From Flavobacterium aerium (GTDB lineage Bacteria; Bacteroidota; Bacteroidia; Flavobacteriales; Flavobacteriaceae), in assembly GCF_030766725.1 (NCBI RefSeq), contig NZ_JARQWR010000002.1:62001-126000 (forward strand): a stretch of DNA of 64,000 nucleotides, written 5' to 3'. Both the position numbers and the translations under genes were made by a program. The notes beneath the pieces were generated by a model. That model saw nothing but the letters and a program-made list of their open reading frames with translations. It did no database searches and was not told where the DNA came from. Shown here piece by piece: positions 58,012-64,000 of the stretch. Every line of letters starts with the position of its first letter. Position 1 is the stretch's first letter.

Positions 58012-59547
58012 ATGCAGAAAATTATCAATTTGTTTGATTTCAAACAAAAAGTAGATTACAAAAATGAAGTTTTAGCAGGTTTAACTGTTGCCATGACAAT
58101 GATCCCTGAAAGTTTATCTTTTGCCATTTTAGCTGGACTCTCACCCTTAACTGGATTATATGCCGCATTTTTAATGGGTTTGGTAACAGCCATTCTTGGC
58201 GGTAGACCGGGAATGGTCTCTGGAGGTGCCGGTGCAACAGTTGTAGTACTCATCGCATTGGCTTCTTCACACGGAGTAGAATATCTCTTCGCTGCCGTAG
58301 TATTGGCAGGTATTTTACAATTATTAGTAGGGCTGTTTAAACTTGGTAAATTTGTTCGTCTGATACCCCAGCCTGTTATGTATGGCTTTCTGAATGGTCT
58401 TGCTGTAATTATTTTTATGGCTCAGGTTGCTCAATTCAAGGTCATAGAGAATGGAGCAGAAAGTTGGATGCACGGAAGTGCACTCTATTTGATGGCTGGG
58501 CTAACAATCCTGACCATAGCGATTGTTTTTCTGCTGCCTAAAATTACCAAGGCAATTCCAGCTTCATTGTTTGCTATACTGGTAGTGTTCGGTATTGTTT
58601 ATTTTTTCAATATAGATACCAAAAAAGTAATTGATATTGCATCTGTCAGTGGTTCATTACCATCGTTTCATATTCCGCAAATTCCTTTTAGCTTAGAAAC
58701 TTTAAGAATCATTTTTCCTTACGCCCTAGTTATGGCTGGTGTTGGCTTGATTGAAAGCCTGCTAACCTTAAACATGGTAGATGAAATTACCAGCACAAAA
58801 GGTCAATCCAATCGGGAAGCGGCTGCACAAGGTATCGCAAATATTACCAATGGCTTCTTTGGCGGAATGGGCGGATGTGCGATGGTTGCCCAAACATTGG
58901 TAAATGTCGGCGCTGGTGCAAGAGCAAGACTATCCGCAATTATTGGAGCTTTCACAATCTTGTTAATTATTTTGGTCGGTGGACCTATAATTGAACAAAT
59001 TCCTATGGCGGCTTTAGTTGGCGTGATGATGATGGTAGCAATTGGAACATTTGAATGGGTAAGCTTTCGTATTATCAATAAAATGCCCCGACACGATATT
59101 TTTATTGGTATGCTTGTGGCAGTCATAACTGTAGTGTTACATAACTTGGCTGTAGCTGTTTTGACAGGTGTGGTTATTTCAGCATTGGTTTTTGCTTGGG
59201 AAAGTGCAAAACGCATCCGTGCAAGAAAATATGTAGATGAAAATGGTGCAAAGCATTATGAAATTTTTGGTCCACTGTTCTTTGGTTCTACTACTGCTTT
59301 TGCCGAAAAATTTGATGTACTGAATGATCCTGATGAAGTGGTAATTGATTTCAAGGAAAGTAAAATAGTAGATATGTCTGCAATTGAAGCCTTGAATAAA
59401 ATTACTGAAAAGTATCACAAAGAAGGTAAAAAGCTCCATTTACGCCACTTAAGTCAGGATTGCAGGCAATTATTGAAAAATGCTGAAACGGTTATAGACG
59501 TGAATATTATTGAAGATCCTACTTATAAAGTAATGACAAATAAATAA
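58012..59547 (+). CDS. SulP-family inorganic anion transporter with STAS domain
   Basis: A 511-residue membrane transporter. The N-terminal part (about residues 15-390) has 10-14 membrane helices with the SulP signature MTMIPESLSFAILAGLSPLTGLYA, seen as PESLSFAILAGLSPLTGLY, and the C-terminal STAS domain (about 420-505) contains VVIDFKESKIVDMSAIEAL. The family moves sulfate, bicarbonate or other oxyanions; the substrate is not certain. The next gene is an ArsR-type regulator about 220 bases on. Confidence 0.88.
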   Translation: MQKIINLFDFKQKVDYKNEVLAGLTVAMTMIPESLSFAILAGLSPLTGLYAAFLMGLVTAILGGRPGMVSGGAGATVVVLIALASSHGVEYLFAAVVLAGILQLLVGLFKLGKFVRLIPQPVMYGFLNGLAVIIFMAQVAQFKVIENGAESWMHGSALYLMAGLTILTIAIVFLLPKITKAIPASLFAILVVFGIVYFFNIDTKKVIDIASVSGSLPSFHIPQIPFSLETLRIIFPYALVMAGVGLIESLLTLNMVDEITSTKGQSNREAAAQGIANITNGFFGGMGGCAMVAQTLVNVGAGARARLSAIIGAFTILLIILVGGPIIEQIPMAALVGVMMMVAIGTFEWVSFRIINKMPRHDIFIGMLVAVITVVLHNLAVAVLTGVVISALVFAWESAKRIRARKYVDENGAKHYEIFGPLFFGSTTAFAEKFDVLNDPDEVVIDFKESKIVDMSAIEALNKITEKYHKEGKKLHLRHLSQDCRQLLKNAETVIDVNIIEDPTYKVMTNK

Positions 59548-59720: not shown

Positions 59721-59756
59721 TTGTCAATTAATTTAATTATCGTAATATTGCGATAT
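59721..59756 (+). promoter_or_regulatory. Promoter with overlapping ArsR operator, site 1
   Basis: TTG (59721-59723), 19 bases, TAATATTG (59743-59750; one mismatch to TAnnTTTG). Overlapping it is the near-palindrome ATCGTAATATTGCGATAT (59739-59756), repeated almost exactly upstream of the next gene at 60123-60140. Binding by the ArsR protein here would block the promoter. Confidence 0.7.
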
Positions 59757-59769
59757 AAATATAAAACAA

Positions 59770-60099
59770 ATGGGTGTTACGAAAACCGAAATATTTACAG
59801 AAGAACAGAACCATCTAGCCATCACTTTGAAAGCACTGGCGCATCCTGCACGAATAGCCATTTTACAATATATCATCAGACAGAATGCCTGCATTTGTAA
59901 TGATTTGGTTGAAGAATTGGGATTAGCACAGGCAACCATTTCACAACATTTAAAAGAACTTAAAAATATTGGCATTATTAAGGGAAATATAGAGGGTACA
60001 AGTGTATGCTACTGTATTAATGAGACAGTCTGGCAACAAATTAGAATGGAATTCAATACTTTCTTTGGCGATAATGTAACTATTGAAAAATGCTGTTAA
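59770..60099 (+). CDS. arsR: ArsR-family metal(loid)-responsive repressor
   Basis: A 109-residue winged-helix repressor. HTH region: LAHPARIAILQYI and LGLAQATISQHLKELKNIG. Thiol pairs are CIC (C41, C43) near the start of the DNA-binding domain, CYC (C80, C82), and the last two residues C108-C109. A CxC at this place matches As(III)-sensing ArsR proteins. It precedes an ACR3 exporter gene cluster and has an operator-like site over its own promoter. Confidence 0.92.
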   Translation: MGVTKTEIFTEEQNHLAITLKALAHPARIAILQYIIRQNACICNDLVEELGLAQATISQHLKELKNIGIIKGNIEGTSVCYCINETVWQQIRMEFNTFFGDNVTIEKCC

Positions 60100-60122
60100 G
60101 GCATTTTTTTAAACCTAAATTC

Positions 60123-60140
60123 ATCGTAACATTGCAATAT
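60123..60140 (+). promoter_or_regulatory. ArsR operator-like site 2
   Basis: ATCGTAACATTGCAATAT, 16 of 18 bases identical to site 1, 28 bases before the DUF6428-like start; includes a TAACATTG -7-like box. It suggests a second promoter controlled by the same repressor. Confidence 0.7.
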
Positions 60141-60168
60141 ATAGTTTATTAAAATTAATATCAGAAAT

Positions 60169-60642
60169 ATGAAATTATCAGAAATCAAACAGATCTTACC
60201 GACATTGGAAAATGTGGAATTTCAACTTGAAAACGGAGCTTTTGTGCCAGAGCACTTCCACGTTACCGAAGTGGGACAAATCATTAAAAACTTTATCGAT
60301 TGTGGAGGTGTACTCCGTTCAGAAAAAGTAGTCAACTTTCAATTATGGAATGCAGACGATTTTGAACATAGATTAAAGCCGACCAAATTATTAAACATCA
60401 TCAAATTATCTGAAGAAAAATTGGGTATTGAAGATTCTGAAATTGAAGTGGAATACCAAAGCGAAACAATTGGTAAATACGATTTAGATTTTAACGAGAA
60501 AAACTTTGTCCTGGTCAACAAAACAACAGATTGTCTAGCTCAGGACGCTTGTGGAATTCCATCTGAAAAACAAAAGAAAAATTTAGCAGAACTAACTGCA
60601 AATAATACTAACACTTGTACTCCAGGTGGTGGATGTTGCTAA
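60169..60642 (+). CDS. DUF6428-like protein with Cys-rich tail
   Basis: A 157-residue soluble protein of the DUF6428 type, a family commonly found in arsenic clusters of Bacteroidota. It has PEHFHVTEVGQIIKNFIDCGG (as HFHVTEVGQIIKNFIDCGG) and a C-terminal Cys cluster: DCLAQDACG and the final NTCTPGGGCC, adding five Cys in the last 30 residues, suited to bind thiophilic ions. The function is not known. First gene after arsR, 69 bases on. Confidence 0.78.
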   Translation: MKLSEIKQILPTLENVEFQLENGAFVPEHFHVTEVGQIIKNFIDCGGVLRSEKVVNFQLWNADDFEHRLKPTKLLNIIKLSEEKLGIEDSEIEVEYQSETIGKYDLDFNEKNFVLVNKTTDCLAQDACGIPSEKQKKNLAELTANNTNTCTPGGGCC

Positions 60643-60688
60643 AAATCAACCAAACTCAAAAAAGTAAAAATTCTAAAAAATTCTAAAA

Positions 60689-61462
60689 ATGAAAATTGCA
60701 TTATTCAGCGACATTCACGCCAATTTACCTGCATTAGAAGCATTCTTTGAAGATGTAGAGAAAAGAAATCCAGATAGCATTTATTGTTTGGGCGATCTGG
60801 TAGGTTACAATATTTGGCCAAATGAAGTGGTAAACGAAATCCGTAAAAGAAAAATTCCAACCATTGCAGGAAATTATGATTTCGGCATTGGGAGAATGAG
60901 TAATGAATGTGGTTGTGCCTACAAAACGGATAGCGAAAAAGACAATGGGAATATTTCCATTTCGTTTACAAATTCTTTGATGAAAGATGATGAACGTGCT
61001 TATTTACGTACGCTCCCGGCACACATCAAAGTAGAATTTCAATTGAACGAGGATAAACTCAATTTACTATTAGTACACGGTAGTCCACGTAAAATAAATG
61101 AGTATCTGTTTGAAGACAGGGAAGAAAAAAGTATGCTTAGAATAATGGAACAGGCAGATGCCGATATTATGTGTTTCGGGCATACACACAAGCCATACCA
61201 TCGTGTTTTAAATTCGGGTCTTGACGGTCAGGATCATTTCAGACACGCCATAAATATAGGTTCGGTTGGGAAGCCCAAAGACAGCGATGTCAGAGGTGGT
61301 TATGTAATGCTTACTATCAATGAACAAAGTTCTGTGTTGGATAAAAACAGCATCAGTGTAGAATTTATACGTTTTGATTATGATATTGAAAGAGCAGCAA
61401 AAGCAGTAGAAGAAAGTCCATTGCCCAATGAATATGCAGAAAATTTAAGAAGAGGTTATTAA
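60689..61462 (+). CDS. Calcineurin-like metallophosphoesterase
   Basis: A 257-residue metallophosphoesterase of the YfcE type. Metal motifs: SDIHANLPAL (D8, H10), GDLVGYN (D36), GNYD (residues 61-64, replacing GNH[D/E]), LLVHGSPR, and CFGHTHKPYH. A CxC pair (C74, C76, in NECGCAYK) follows GNYD, an unusual addition that could be a thiol site. It sits 46 bases after the DUF6428-like gene and 17 bases before the H-protein gene. The substrate is unknown. Confidence 0.85.
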   Translation: MKIALFSDIHANLPALEAFFEDVEKRNPDSIYCLGDLVGYNIWPNEVVNEIRKRKIPTIAGNYDFGIGRMSNECGCAYKTDSEKDNGNISISFTNSLMKDDERAYLRTLPAHIKVEFQLNEDKLNLLLVHGSPRKINEYLFEDREEKSMLRIMEQADADIMCFGHTHKPYHRVLNSGLDGQDHFRHAINIGSVGKPKDSDVRGGYVMLTINEQSSVLDKNSISVEFIRFDYDIERAAKAVEESPLPNEYAENLRRGY

Positions 61463-61479
61463 TCTAAAAACTTGTAGAA

Positions 61480-61857
61480 ATGGAACTTCCAAACGAATTA
61501 AAATATTCAAAAGAACATACTTGGATAAGGGTACAAGAAAACACAGGCACAATAGGTATTACAGCATTTGCTCAAAGTGAATTAAGAGAAATTGTATATG
61601 CAGATTTACCAAATGTTGGACATAATTTCCTTCAGGATGAAGTATTTGGCTCTGTTGAAGCGATCAAAACTGTAAGTGATTTATTTATGCCCGTATCGGG
61701 CAAAATTATTGAAACAAACGAACTCTTACTAAAAGAACCAACACTCATTAATACTGCACCTTTTGAAAACGGTTGGCTGATAAAAATAGAAATTAAGGAC
61801 GATGCAGAATTAGAAAATTTGCTTACATCAAATCAATATAAAGAAATTATAAATTAG
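61480..61857 (+). CDS. gcvH: Lipoyl-carrier H-protein (GcvH-like) in the ars cluster
   Basis: A 125-residue lipoyl-domain protein. The lipoylation loop [18 protein letters not shown] holds the modified Lys at 63, as in glycine cleavage H-protein, and the start [10 protein letters not shown] and NGWLIKIEI near the end fit the same family. No gcvT or gcvP is near, so this copy is not in a glycine-cleavage operon. It lies seven bases before the arsenite exporter gene. A lipoyl dithiol would bind As(III) strongly, so it may carry arsenite; that is an inference. Confidence 0.88.
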
Positions 61858-61864
61858 CCATACA

Positions 61865-62896
61865 ATGCAACCAAAATTAAAATTTCTTGACCGTTACCTA
61901 ACTCTATGGATATTACTTGCAATGGCTCTAGGTATAGGATTGGGATATTTCTTCCCAAGTATTTCCAATGTTACAAATGCTTTATCCGTAGGCATAACCA
62001 ACATTCCTTTGGCAATAGGTCTAATATTGATGATGTACCCGCCATTGGCGAAAGTGGATTATTCTTTATTACCTATGGCATTTAAGGATAAAAAAGTAAT
62101 CGGTATATCCTTATTGCTGAATTGGGTTATCGGCACAATATTGATGTTCGGATTGGCAGTTTTGTTTTTACGAAACGAACCCGATTATATGACAGGCTTG
62201 ATACTAATTGGCTTGGCAAGGTGTATCGCGATGGTAATTGTGTGGAGTGACTTAGCTAAAGCAAACAGAGAATATACGGCTATGTTAGTTGCATTGAACA
62301 GTATCTTCCAGATAGTATCTTATAGCTTCTTAGTTTGGCTATTCATCAATGTATTGCCTGCAAAATTAGGATTAGCCAATTTCAATGTAAGCGTATCAAT
62401 GAAAGATGTTACAGAAAGCGTATTGATATACTTAGGCATTCCATTTCTAGCAGGTTTTCTAAGCCGTTACTTTCTTGTTAAATCAAAAGGCATAGAATGG
62501 TATAATAGAAAATTCGTACCCACAATATCTCCTATTACTCTGTACGCATTGCTATTTACAATAGTGCTTATGTTTAGTCTCAAAGGTGATAAAATATTGG
62601 AATTGCCAATGGATGTCCTTAAAGTAGCAATACCGTTAATTATCTATTTTATCTTGATGTTTTTCATAAGCTTCTTTATCAATAAGTCCCTAAAGATTCC
62701 TTACGATAAAAATGCCTCTATCGCATTTACGGCTACGGGAAACAATTTTGAATTAGCTATTGCTGTAGCAATAGCAGTCTTCGGAATCCATTCACCACAG
62801 GCTTTTGTGGGTGTCATAGGACCATTGGTAGAAGTTCCTGTGCTGATATTATTAGTAAGAGCAAGTCTATGGCTGAAAAAGAAGTATTATCATTAA
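61865..62896 (+). CDS. acr3: ACR3-family arsenite efflux transporter
   Basis: A 343-residue membrane exporter for As(III) with about ten helices. The ACR3 hallmarks are the Cys in [14 protein letters not shown] (about residue 120) and the Glu in [15 protein letters not shown]. It is the last gene of the arsR-DUF6428-metallophosphoesterase-H-protein-acr3 series. No arsenate reductase (arsC) is found in the window after it; an IS110 transposase gene lies just downstream. Confidence 0.95.
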
Positions 62897-62957: not shown

Positions 62958-62982
62958 GGGGGAGTTGACTTAAAACTTCCCC
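62958..62982 (+). terminator. Hairpin after acr3
   Basis: GGGGGAGTT (62958-62966) pairs with AACTTCCCC (62974-62982), one G-U, loop of seven bases, followed by TTTCTTTA. It could terminate the ars transcript or be part of the insertion-sequence end. Confidence 0.5.
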
Positions 62983-62987
62983 TTTCT

Positions 62988-64000
62988 TTATACTCCCAAT
63001 TCCAGGAAAGGAATGATCTGATCCTCGTGTTCTGGATTATAGTAAGAATTGTTTTTCCAGAGGATAAAAGTCAATTCTAGTAATTTCCTTTGGATGGCAA
63101 CAATAGCTTTCATTTTAATTCCATGCCGTGAAACTAATCTTGAAAAGATATCTCTGAACCTTTCATCGGTTCTAATTGCAGCCAGTGCCGGAAAGTGCAT
63201 GACTTTCCTTAAATTCCGATTTCCGCGCTTGGATATTCGGGGCTTGGATTTCACAGAAGTTCCAGATGTCTTTTCCCTAACATCCAATCCAGCATAACTG
63301 ACCAGTTGTCTTTTATTCTTTATCAGTTCAAAACCACTGGTTTCAGCGATAATAGTTACAGCGGTCAAATTTCCGATTCCGGGTATAGAAGATATCATTT
63401 TCATCTTTTCCATTAGTACTTCGTCTGCTTTGGTAAGTTTAGAAATTTCTTCTCGTATCTCCTTTTCCTGCGCATCAATAAGGGCTATTCTTTTGTTTGT
63501 TCGTTTAACTGACTTTTCACTTGATTTTGCAGAAGTACGTTCAGCATGCAACTGATTTTTTAGCATGGTACGTTCCTGTACCAACTGATCACGTTCCCGG
63601 CAAAGTTGTCTCAAATCATTGAATATTTTTAGAGGAGGTTGCCAAACTTCCAATTGCCTTTCCAATCCAAATCTTGCAATGGCTTGTGAAGCACTTTTAT
63701 CAGTAATCGTTTTTATATCAAGTGTTCTCACATAATTACTAATCTTGTTTGGTAAAACGATACTGATTTGTTTTTGAACACTACATAGATAATAAGCTAA
63801 AGATTCATGGTAAACTCCTGTTGCTTCCATTACATACCGTACTTCCGTTGTGGTTGATGTTTGCTTATTAACCCATGACACAAGACTGGAAAACCCTTTT
63901 TTAGTATTGGGAAATACTTTGTAAGCATAAACTTCAACACTGATTTGCTCGTCCATTCGAGCAAGGGACACAACTAATTCCTTTTGAGCAACATCAATTC
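62988..64000 (-). CDS. IS110-family transposase, start beyond the window
   Basis: The frame runs from a stop at 62988 to the right window end; a GTG near 63971 is internal, because the codons before it read IDVAQKELVVSLAR, which includes the N-terminal catalytic Asp of DEDD transposases (plus coordinates 63993-63995). The rest has the IS110 order: a DEDD_Tnp_IS110 domain (AsnKISNYVR, DKSASQAIARFG), then the Tnp20-like C-terminal domain with ISSIPGIGNLTAVTIIAE and a helix-hairpin-helix-like part, and GRSVKSKPRISKRGNRNLR-like residues. About 330 residues of the usual ~350 are visible. Confidence 0.92.
   Translation of the reverse strand, partial: IDVAQKELVVSLARMDEQISVEVYAYKVFPNTKKGFSSLVSWVNKQTSTTTEVRYVMEATGVYHESLAYYLCSVQKQISIVLPNKISNYVRTLDIKTITDKSASQAIARFGLERQLEVWQPPLKIFNDLRQLCRERDQLVQERTMLKNQLHAERTSAKSSEKSVKRTNKRIALIDAQEKEIREEISKLTKADEVLMEKMKMISSIPGIGNLTAVTIIAETSGFELIKNKRQLVSYAGLDVREKTSGTSVKSKPRISKRGNRNLRKVMHFPALAAIRTDERFRDIFSRLVSRHGIKMKAIVAIQRKLLELTFILWKNNSYYNPEHEDQIIPFLELGV
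62988..64000 (-). mobile_element. IS110-family insertion sequence, right part outside window
   Basis: Element carrying the transposase above. IS110 elements often lack long terminal inverted repeats, and I cannot define the left end; the hairpin at 62958-62982 may lie inside or outside the element. Confidence 0.7.

Follow-up and report, generated by a model that had tools for sequence, protein, structure and literature searches.

Why does a bacterial arsenic operon carry a gene for a lipoyl-type H-protein? The question is raised by a stretch of 64,000 nucleotides of Flavobacterium aerium (contig NZ_JARQWR010000002.1, positions 62,001 to 126,000; the window, below, is this whole stretch), in which arsR, a DUF6428 gene, a metallophosphoesterase gene, a gcvH-like gene and acr3 follow each other on the + strand. 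The gaps between them, calculated from the coordinates, are 69, 46, 17 and 7 bp, and all five products score above curated family cut-offs. An earlier note on this DNA, made from the letters alone, had given the same genes in the same order and had described the DUF6428-like protein as Cys-tailed; coordinates and profile scores (Table 1) bear out both statements, and its start at 59721 lies upstream of arsR. We found that the five genes form an arsenic operon with ArsR-type operators, that the ars-type GcvH is one lineage apart from canonical GcvH, and that the constant neighbour of its gene is not acr3 but the phosphoesterase gene, whose product matches the Car1-type arsenate reductases. These sequence comparisons lead us to propose that Car1 has a lipoyl carrier of its own in the GcvH-like protein, which most likely hands it electrons from lipoamide dehydrogenase, a proposal that we regard as about evenly poised between right and wrong.

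The metallophosphoesterase of the window carries its CxC motif at precisely residues 74 and 76. In Car1 of Rufibacter tibetensis, described in an excerpt of PMC12124457 (citing Shen et al. 2024, Mol Microbiol 122:201) as a metallophosphoesterase that evolved for redox catalysis, Cys74 and Cys76 are essential. Among 129 distinct homologues, 96 had both cysteines together with Tyr63, 32 had His63 and no cysteine at either position, and one (L036) had Phe74, Cys76 and Tyr63. Because Tyr63 accompanies the CxC motif and His63 accompanies its absence, the GNH motif must have lost its His in proteins of the CxC type; the window protein, too, has Tyr where its paralogues carry this His. We matched it to the Car1 type through the published cysteine positions and not through an alignment with the R. 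tibetensis sequence. The structural model of the protein has a predicted local distance difference test (pLDDT) score of 95.6, lowest near residues 71-80, the site of the CxC motif (block mean 81), and the solved structures nearest to it are phosphoesterases, e.g. 3rqz (the Ap4A hydrolase SapH). The ratio of nonsynonymous to synonymous substitution rates (dN/dS) of Car1 was 0.02-0.04 in 16 of 17 comparisons. The idea, put forward in the earlier note, that this phosphoesterase cleans up arsenate- or phosphate-ester products is not supported, given the CxC of Car1 and the Tyr replacing the GNH His. The window protein is thus like R. tibetensis Car1 and Orf1 of Paraclostridium dentum in being a metallophosphoesterase with Cys74/Cys76 encoded in an ars operon, whereas the excerpt of PMC12124457 mentions no GcvH partner for either of these.

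The neighbourhood search showed that the gene order is not a product of chance and not specific to the source strain, with ars-type gcvH being present in Bacteroidota beyond it. Eighty GcvH loci were kept, 14 of which lie together with phosphoesterase and ACR3 (13 at an identity of at least 60%, and L051 at 56%); the remaining 66, at 49-59% identity, had neither in the DNA read. A phosphoesterase homologue at E 1e-60 was found in 23 of 395 genomes of the phylum and in 25 of 226, 66 of 231 and 58 of 224 genomes of the family samples, with some overlap among the samples; for the samples of 231 and 224 genomes, the best-matching loci, at most 30 each, were inspected. Places fetched twice included, gcvH was intact in 41 loci, which hold 29 distinct gcvH sequences, broken in 9 and missing from 95. 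Car1 lies directly upstream of gcvH in 39 of the 41 intact loci, counting L036, whose Car1 is 94% identical and carries F74; in the two exceptions, a UPF0060 gene (L045) or a GNH paralogue (L203) stands between them. No gcvH without Car1 was found among 8 loci that lack a CGCAY homologue (a small sample, most with ACR3), in 29 loci whose best homologue is less than 70% identical (duplicates included), or in the second ars operon of the genome. Graded by identity to the window protein, and again with duplicates included, 31 of 46 loci with at least 90% identity carried an intact gcvH, as did 6 of 20 at 80-89% and 4 of 50 at 70-79%, but none of the 29 under 70%.

These counts bear on the suggestion of the earlier note that the protein could be an arsenite carrier to ACR3, comparable to ArsD in its service to ArsA. 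In such a scheme, the dihydrolipoyl dithiol would pick up the As(III) made by Car1 and deliver it to the exporter. Lipoyl dithiols are known to bind As(III), and acr3 is directly downstream of gcvH in 35 of the 41 intact loci, both of which speak for a carrier. However, gcvH stays behind Car1 in L046, L048, L051, L203 and L220, where ACR3 lies upstream instead; in L277, L278 and L279 gcvH and Car1 are accompanied by a MIP-family aquaporin, and the 12-19 kb read show no ACR3, with gcvH intact in L277 only and broken in the other two; and gcvH is missing from the 8 loci without a CGCAY homologue, small as that sample is. What stands of the suggestion is a dedicated lipoyl-type protein in an ars operon, whereas its link to ACR3 is weakened, and we consider a carrier role by itself rather unlikely. 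A combined role, with ars-GcvH acting as reductant and then as carrier, is possible. The three aquaporin operons also carry arsM.

The ars-type GcvH passes the PF01597 profile and the TIGR00527 gcvH cut-off and falls far below the models for proteins that are not gcvH (61.6 against 144.05 bits for TIGR03077, and 30.3 against 150 bits for NF045810). In a tree of 121 GcvH rows, the 29 full-length ars copies make up one side of one branch, with support of 99/89 and 200 of 200 bootstraps; L224, L120 and L220 have long branches. The tree took 121 of 127 distinct open reading frames (ORFs), the other six being fragments or broken ars copies. The label ars was given on the basis of a neighbour no more than 3.5 kb away, and since the tree covers the nearest matches to the window protein, distant relatives elsewhere may be missing. 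The lipoylation lysine K63, which the earlier note had called intact, is kept in all 29 ars-type copies. Position 14, by contrast, is Thr in 29 of 29 ars-type copies versus Glu in 92 of 92 canonical ones, and the HEW motif is present in 21 of 21 further GcvH copies fetched from genomes that also carry an ars copy. The model of ars-GcvH superposes on 1htp, which we take to be the pea H-protein, with a Z score of 24.2, a root-mean-square deviation of 0.8 and residues 1-125 lying on residues 1-125. Given this residue-for-residue fit, position 14 of the window protein corresponds to residue 14 of 1htp, presumably the Glu that holds the aminomethyl group. The dN/dS of gcvH was 0.09-0.16 in the 13 of 17 comparisons used, indicating purifying selection; the four left out were undefined (L043 and L044) or came from mistrimmed 126-residue proteins (L041 and L175, one with a value of 1.24). 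The window protein has no cysteine and hence none of the cysteine pairs of ArsD, so any binding of As(III) would need the lipoyl group.

Canonical GcvH shares its fold, K63 and the lipoylation motif with the ars type, which differs in T14 for E14, in its place in an ars operon and in having gcvP on another contig. One could take the ars type for a spare H-protein that, when arsenic stresses the cell, serves glycine cleavage or the supply of one-carbon units, as its TIGR00527 score and its fit to 1htp would allow; in an excerpt of PMC10138600, gcvH3 of Pseudomonas pseudoalcaligenes is described as induced under arsenite. But the uniform Thr14 in place of Glu14 argues against such a role, and all 25 genomes tested among those with an intact ars copy already have one further GcvH above the cut-off together with glycine decarboxylase, as well as lipA and lipoamide dehydrogenase (13 further records with an intact ars copy lie outside this sample). 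Furthermore, the ars operons read showed no sign of other glycine-cleavage genes. The earlier note had likewise seen none nearby and had raised the chance that this is the only gcvH of the genome. In the source genome a separate, normal gcvH is on contig C56 and glycine decarboxylase is on C1, with the window on C22. A spare H-protein seems to us decidedly improbable.

Alternatively, as the earlier note also suggested, the protein might work as a decoy or buffer for arsenite and so spare the lipoyl enzymes of central metabolism. The intact K63, the loss of E14 and the place behind ArsR-type operators agree with this, as does an excerpt of PMC6453569 in which DBT-1 of Caenorhabditis elegans ties a lipoyl domain to the arsenic response. 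A decoy, however, would work only at high abundance and should not need Car1 as a neighbour, yet gcvH always came with Car1 in the loci inspected, and we regard this explanation as quite improbable.

A lipoyl protein dedicated to Car1 would not be the first H-like protein to be given another task. GcvH-L of Streptococcus pyogenes (PDB 5a35), which presumably belongs to the SirTM operon, is such a case; it matches the model of the window GcvH with a Z score of 16.3 at 26% identity and ranks lower than the listed H-proteins. Another is LbpA, from Hdr-like sulfur oxidation (excerpt of PMC6067878), and a text search of that paper gave no mention of clefts or related words in the part covered.

In the mechanism we propose, Car1 would reduce arsenate and ACR3 would export the arsenite, while the dihydrolipoyl dithiol of ars-GcvH would re-reduce Cys74 and Cys76 of Car1 after each round and would itself be recharged with NADH through the lipoamide dehydrogenase of the cell. 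We infer the lipoylation of ars-GcvH, its contact with Car1 and the direction of electron flow. According to excerpts of PMC5962072 and PMC8945050, lipoylated proteins act together with lipoamide dehydrogenase as electron donors to Ohr, OsmC and AhpD. Since lipoylated proteins can reduce Cys enzymes, the pairing of a lipoyl protein with a CxC reductase agrees with this scheme, and the electron-donor role is the one we prefer. As in our proposal, a lipoylated protein and lipoamide dehydrogenase feed a Cys enzyme in these systems, but the donors in the same excerpts are proteins of dehydrogenase complexes or LpdA instead of a dedicated H-protein, and the enzymes act on a peroxide. The complete path of a lipoyl-driven arsenate reductase, from NADH to lipoamide dehydrogenase, to a dedicated H-protein in which Thr replaces the methylamine-holding Glu14, and on to the CxC of a phosphoesterase-derived reductase, appears plausible, if somewhat short of an even chance.

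GcvH also acts as a lipoyl relay in other bacteria, e.g. Bacillus, and it is conceivable from this that ars-GcvH stores lipoyl or octanoyl groups for re-lipoylating poisoned dehydrogenases. Such a store would leave the tie to Car1 unexplained. Moreover, the operons read, whose ORFs were not all compared with a library, showed neither an amidotransferase nor a ligase gene, and in particular no dedicated lipoate ligase. We hold a store of this kind to be very improbable indeed.

Several observations weigh against a lipoyl donor dedicated to Car1. In 92 distinct Car1-type loci inspected, gcvH was intact in 23, broken in 7 and missing from 62. (These are 109 loci minus the 8 without a CGCAY homologue and minus 9 with identical Car1 DNA, of which three, L188, L190 and L217, have intact gcvH.) Thus gcvH is an accessory at Car1 loci, and Car1 must be capable of working with another donor. 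Broken copies of gcvH lie beside an open Car1 gene in L042, L165, L176/L007, L181, L192, L193, L231/L278 and L241/L279; errors in draft sequences may account for part of them. In L036, a contig of a metagenome-assembled genome (MAG), the Car1 with Phe74 stands beside an intact gcvH, either as a real variant or by a sequence error. It would also be odd for a reductant to rely on a dithiol with tight As(III) binding at the very place where As(III) is made. Finally, gene neighbourhood is the main evidence for the proposed link between Car1 and GcvH.

Among the literature matches listed, there was no paper on GcvH in an ars operon or paired with Car1. In arsenic biology, lipoic acid has figured as a target that arsenite harms. 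If our proposal holds, it would instead be a working part of arsenate detoxification, the H-protein would gain a further task outside glycine cleavage, and a recently discovered class of arsenate reductase would have a named donor. Should this dithiol also capture the arsenite produced, reduction and capture would become one step. Even if the donor role fails, the fixed T14 would serve as a marker of a conserved arsenic-specific H-protein, which, because TIGR00527 scores it above the cut-off, would be named plain gcvH.

The operator motif ATCGYAAYATTGCRAT was derived from the two sites within the five-gene operon. It has exactly three matches in the 4.0 Mb genome and none in a reversed control; the third match precedes the second ars operon, so that all three front ars genes. 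The motif was present in 51 of 273 loci, often just 5' of arsR. The second ars operon is arsR-DUF6428-arsC-acr3, with neither phosphoesterase nor GcvH.

Table 1. Features of the ars operon of F. aerium, in window coordinates
Feature	Position	Strand	Evidence
ArsR-type operator, imperfect palindrome ATCGTAATATTGCGAT, 5' of arsR	59739..59754	+	exact motif match
arsR, ArsR/SmtB-family repressor	59770..60099	+	HTH_5, NF033788 above cut-off
Second operator copy ATCGTAACATTGCAAT, between arsR and DUF6428	60123..60138	+	exact motif match
DUF6428 protein, Cys-rich tail	60169..60642	+	PF20001, 226.7 bits
Predicted Car1-type arsenate reductase, metallophosphoesterase fold, C74 and C76, GNY replacing GNH	60689..61462	+	PF12850/PF00149
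ars-type GcvH, lipoyl-type H-protein, K63, T14 (canonical E14), no cysteine	61480..61857	+	PF01597, TIGR00527
acr3, arsenite exporter	61865..62896	+	SBF; TIGR00832 433.5 bits, cut-off 282.8
Terminator-like hairpin 3' of acr3	62958..62982	+	1 found vs 2.3 expected by chance in the stretch; weak alone

Within ars operons, the CxC/GNY phosphoesterase is often followed in tandem by a GNH paralogue without CxC (L118, L119, L195, L205 and others). By gene order, the mrme1/mrme2 pair of Mucilaginibacter gossypii P3 resembles this arrangement, with mrme1 as the CxC type and mrme2 as the GNH paralogue; an excerpt of PMC10652896 describes the pair as not characterised, and the operons listed there lack gcvH, unlike that of the window. 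In L138, a 39% homologue with a GNH motif retains the loop, but each of the two cysteines is replaced by Phe; it is possibly of another subfamily or an intermediate form. The long Car1 frames of L158 and L159, checked by eye only, were rejected as natural fusions of Car1 with a redox domain, as the extra N-terminal residues precede the usual start. Among plasmid records, 16 encode a phosphoesterase homologue of at least 60% identity, whereas the 162 that match GcvH are all below 60%, so that there is no clear ars-type copy among them.

At six loci (L117, L178, L182, L184, L185 and L194, of families f5 and f17), the place of gcvH is filled by an ORF of 139-203 residues and one of 163 residues, as if the two sets replaced each other. 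In L117 the first gives a weak match to the arsC_pI258 models, well short of their cut-offs, and the second belongs to the GNAT acetyltransferases. A MAG contig assigned to Ignavibacteriales (L041) has the operon with phosphoesterase and ACR3 at 92-93% identity, by recent transfer or because the contig was misbinned.

A literature search on DUF6428 found no paper. The order in L148 is arsR, DUF6428, GNAT, arsC, two ORFs, acr3 and two phosphoesterases (78% and 49% homologues), and that published for M. gossypii P3 is arsR-mrarsU-arsN-arsC-hp-acr3-mrme1-mrme2 (excerpt of PMC10652896). As the two agree except for one extra small ORF, DUF6428 may, by gene order only, be MrArsU or its relative. Upstream of arsR in the window, a SulP-type permease gene occupies 58012-59547, and a homologue at 91% identity is also upstream in two Sphingobacterium loci (L038 and L047). 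Behind the operon, an IS110-type transposase gene (62988-63998) runs off the end of the window, and in L047 an 89% homologue again lies behind the operon.

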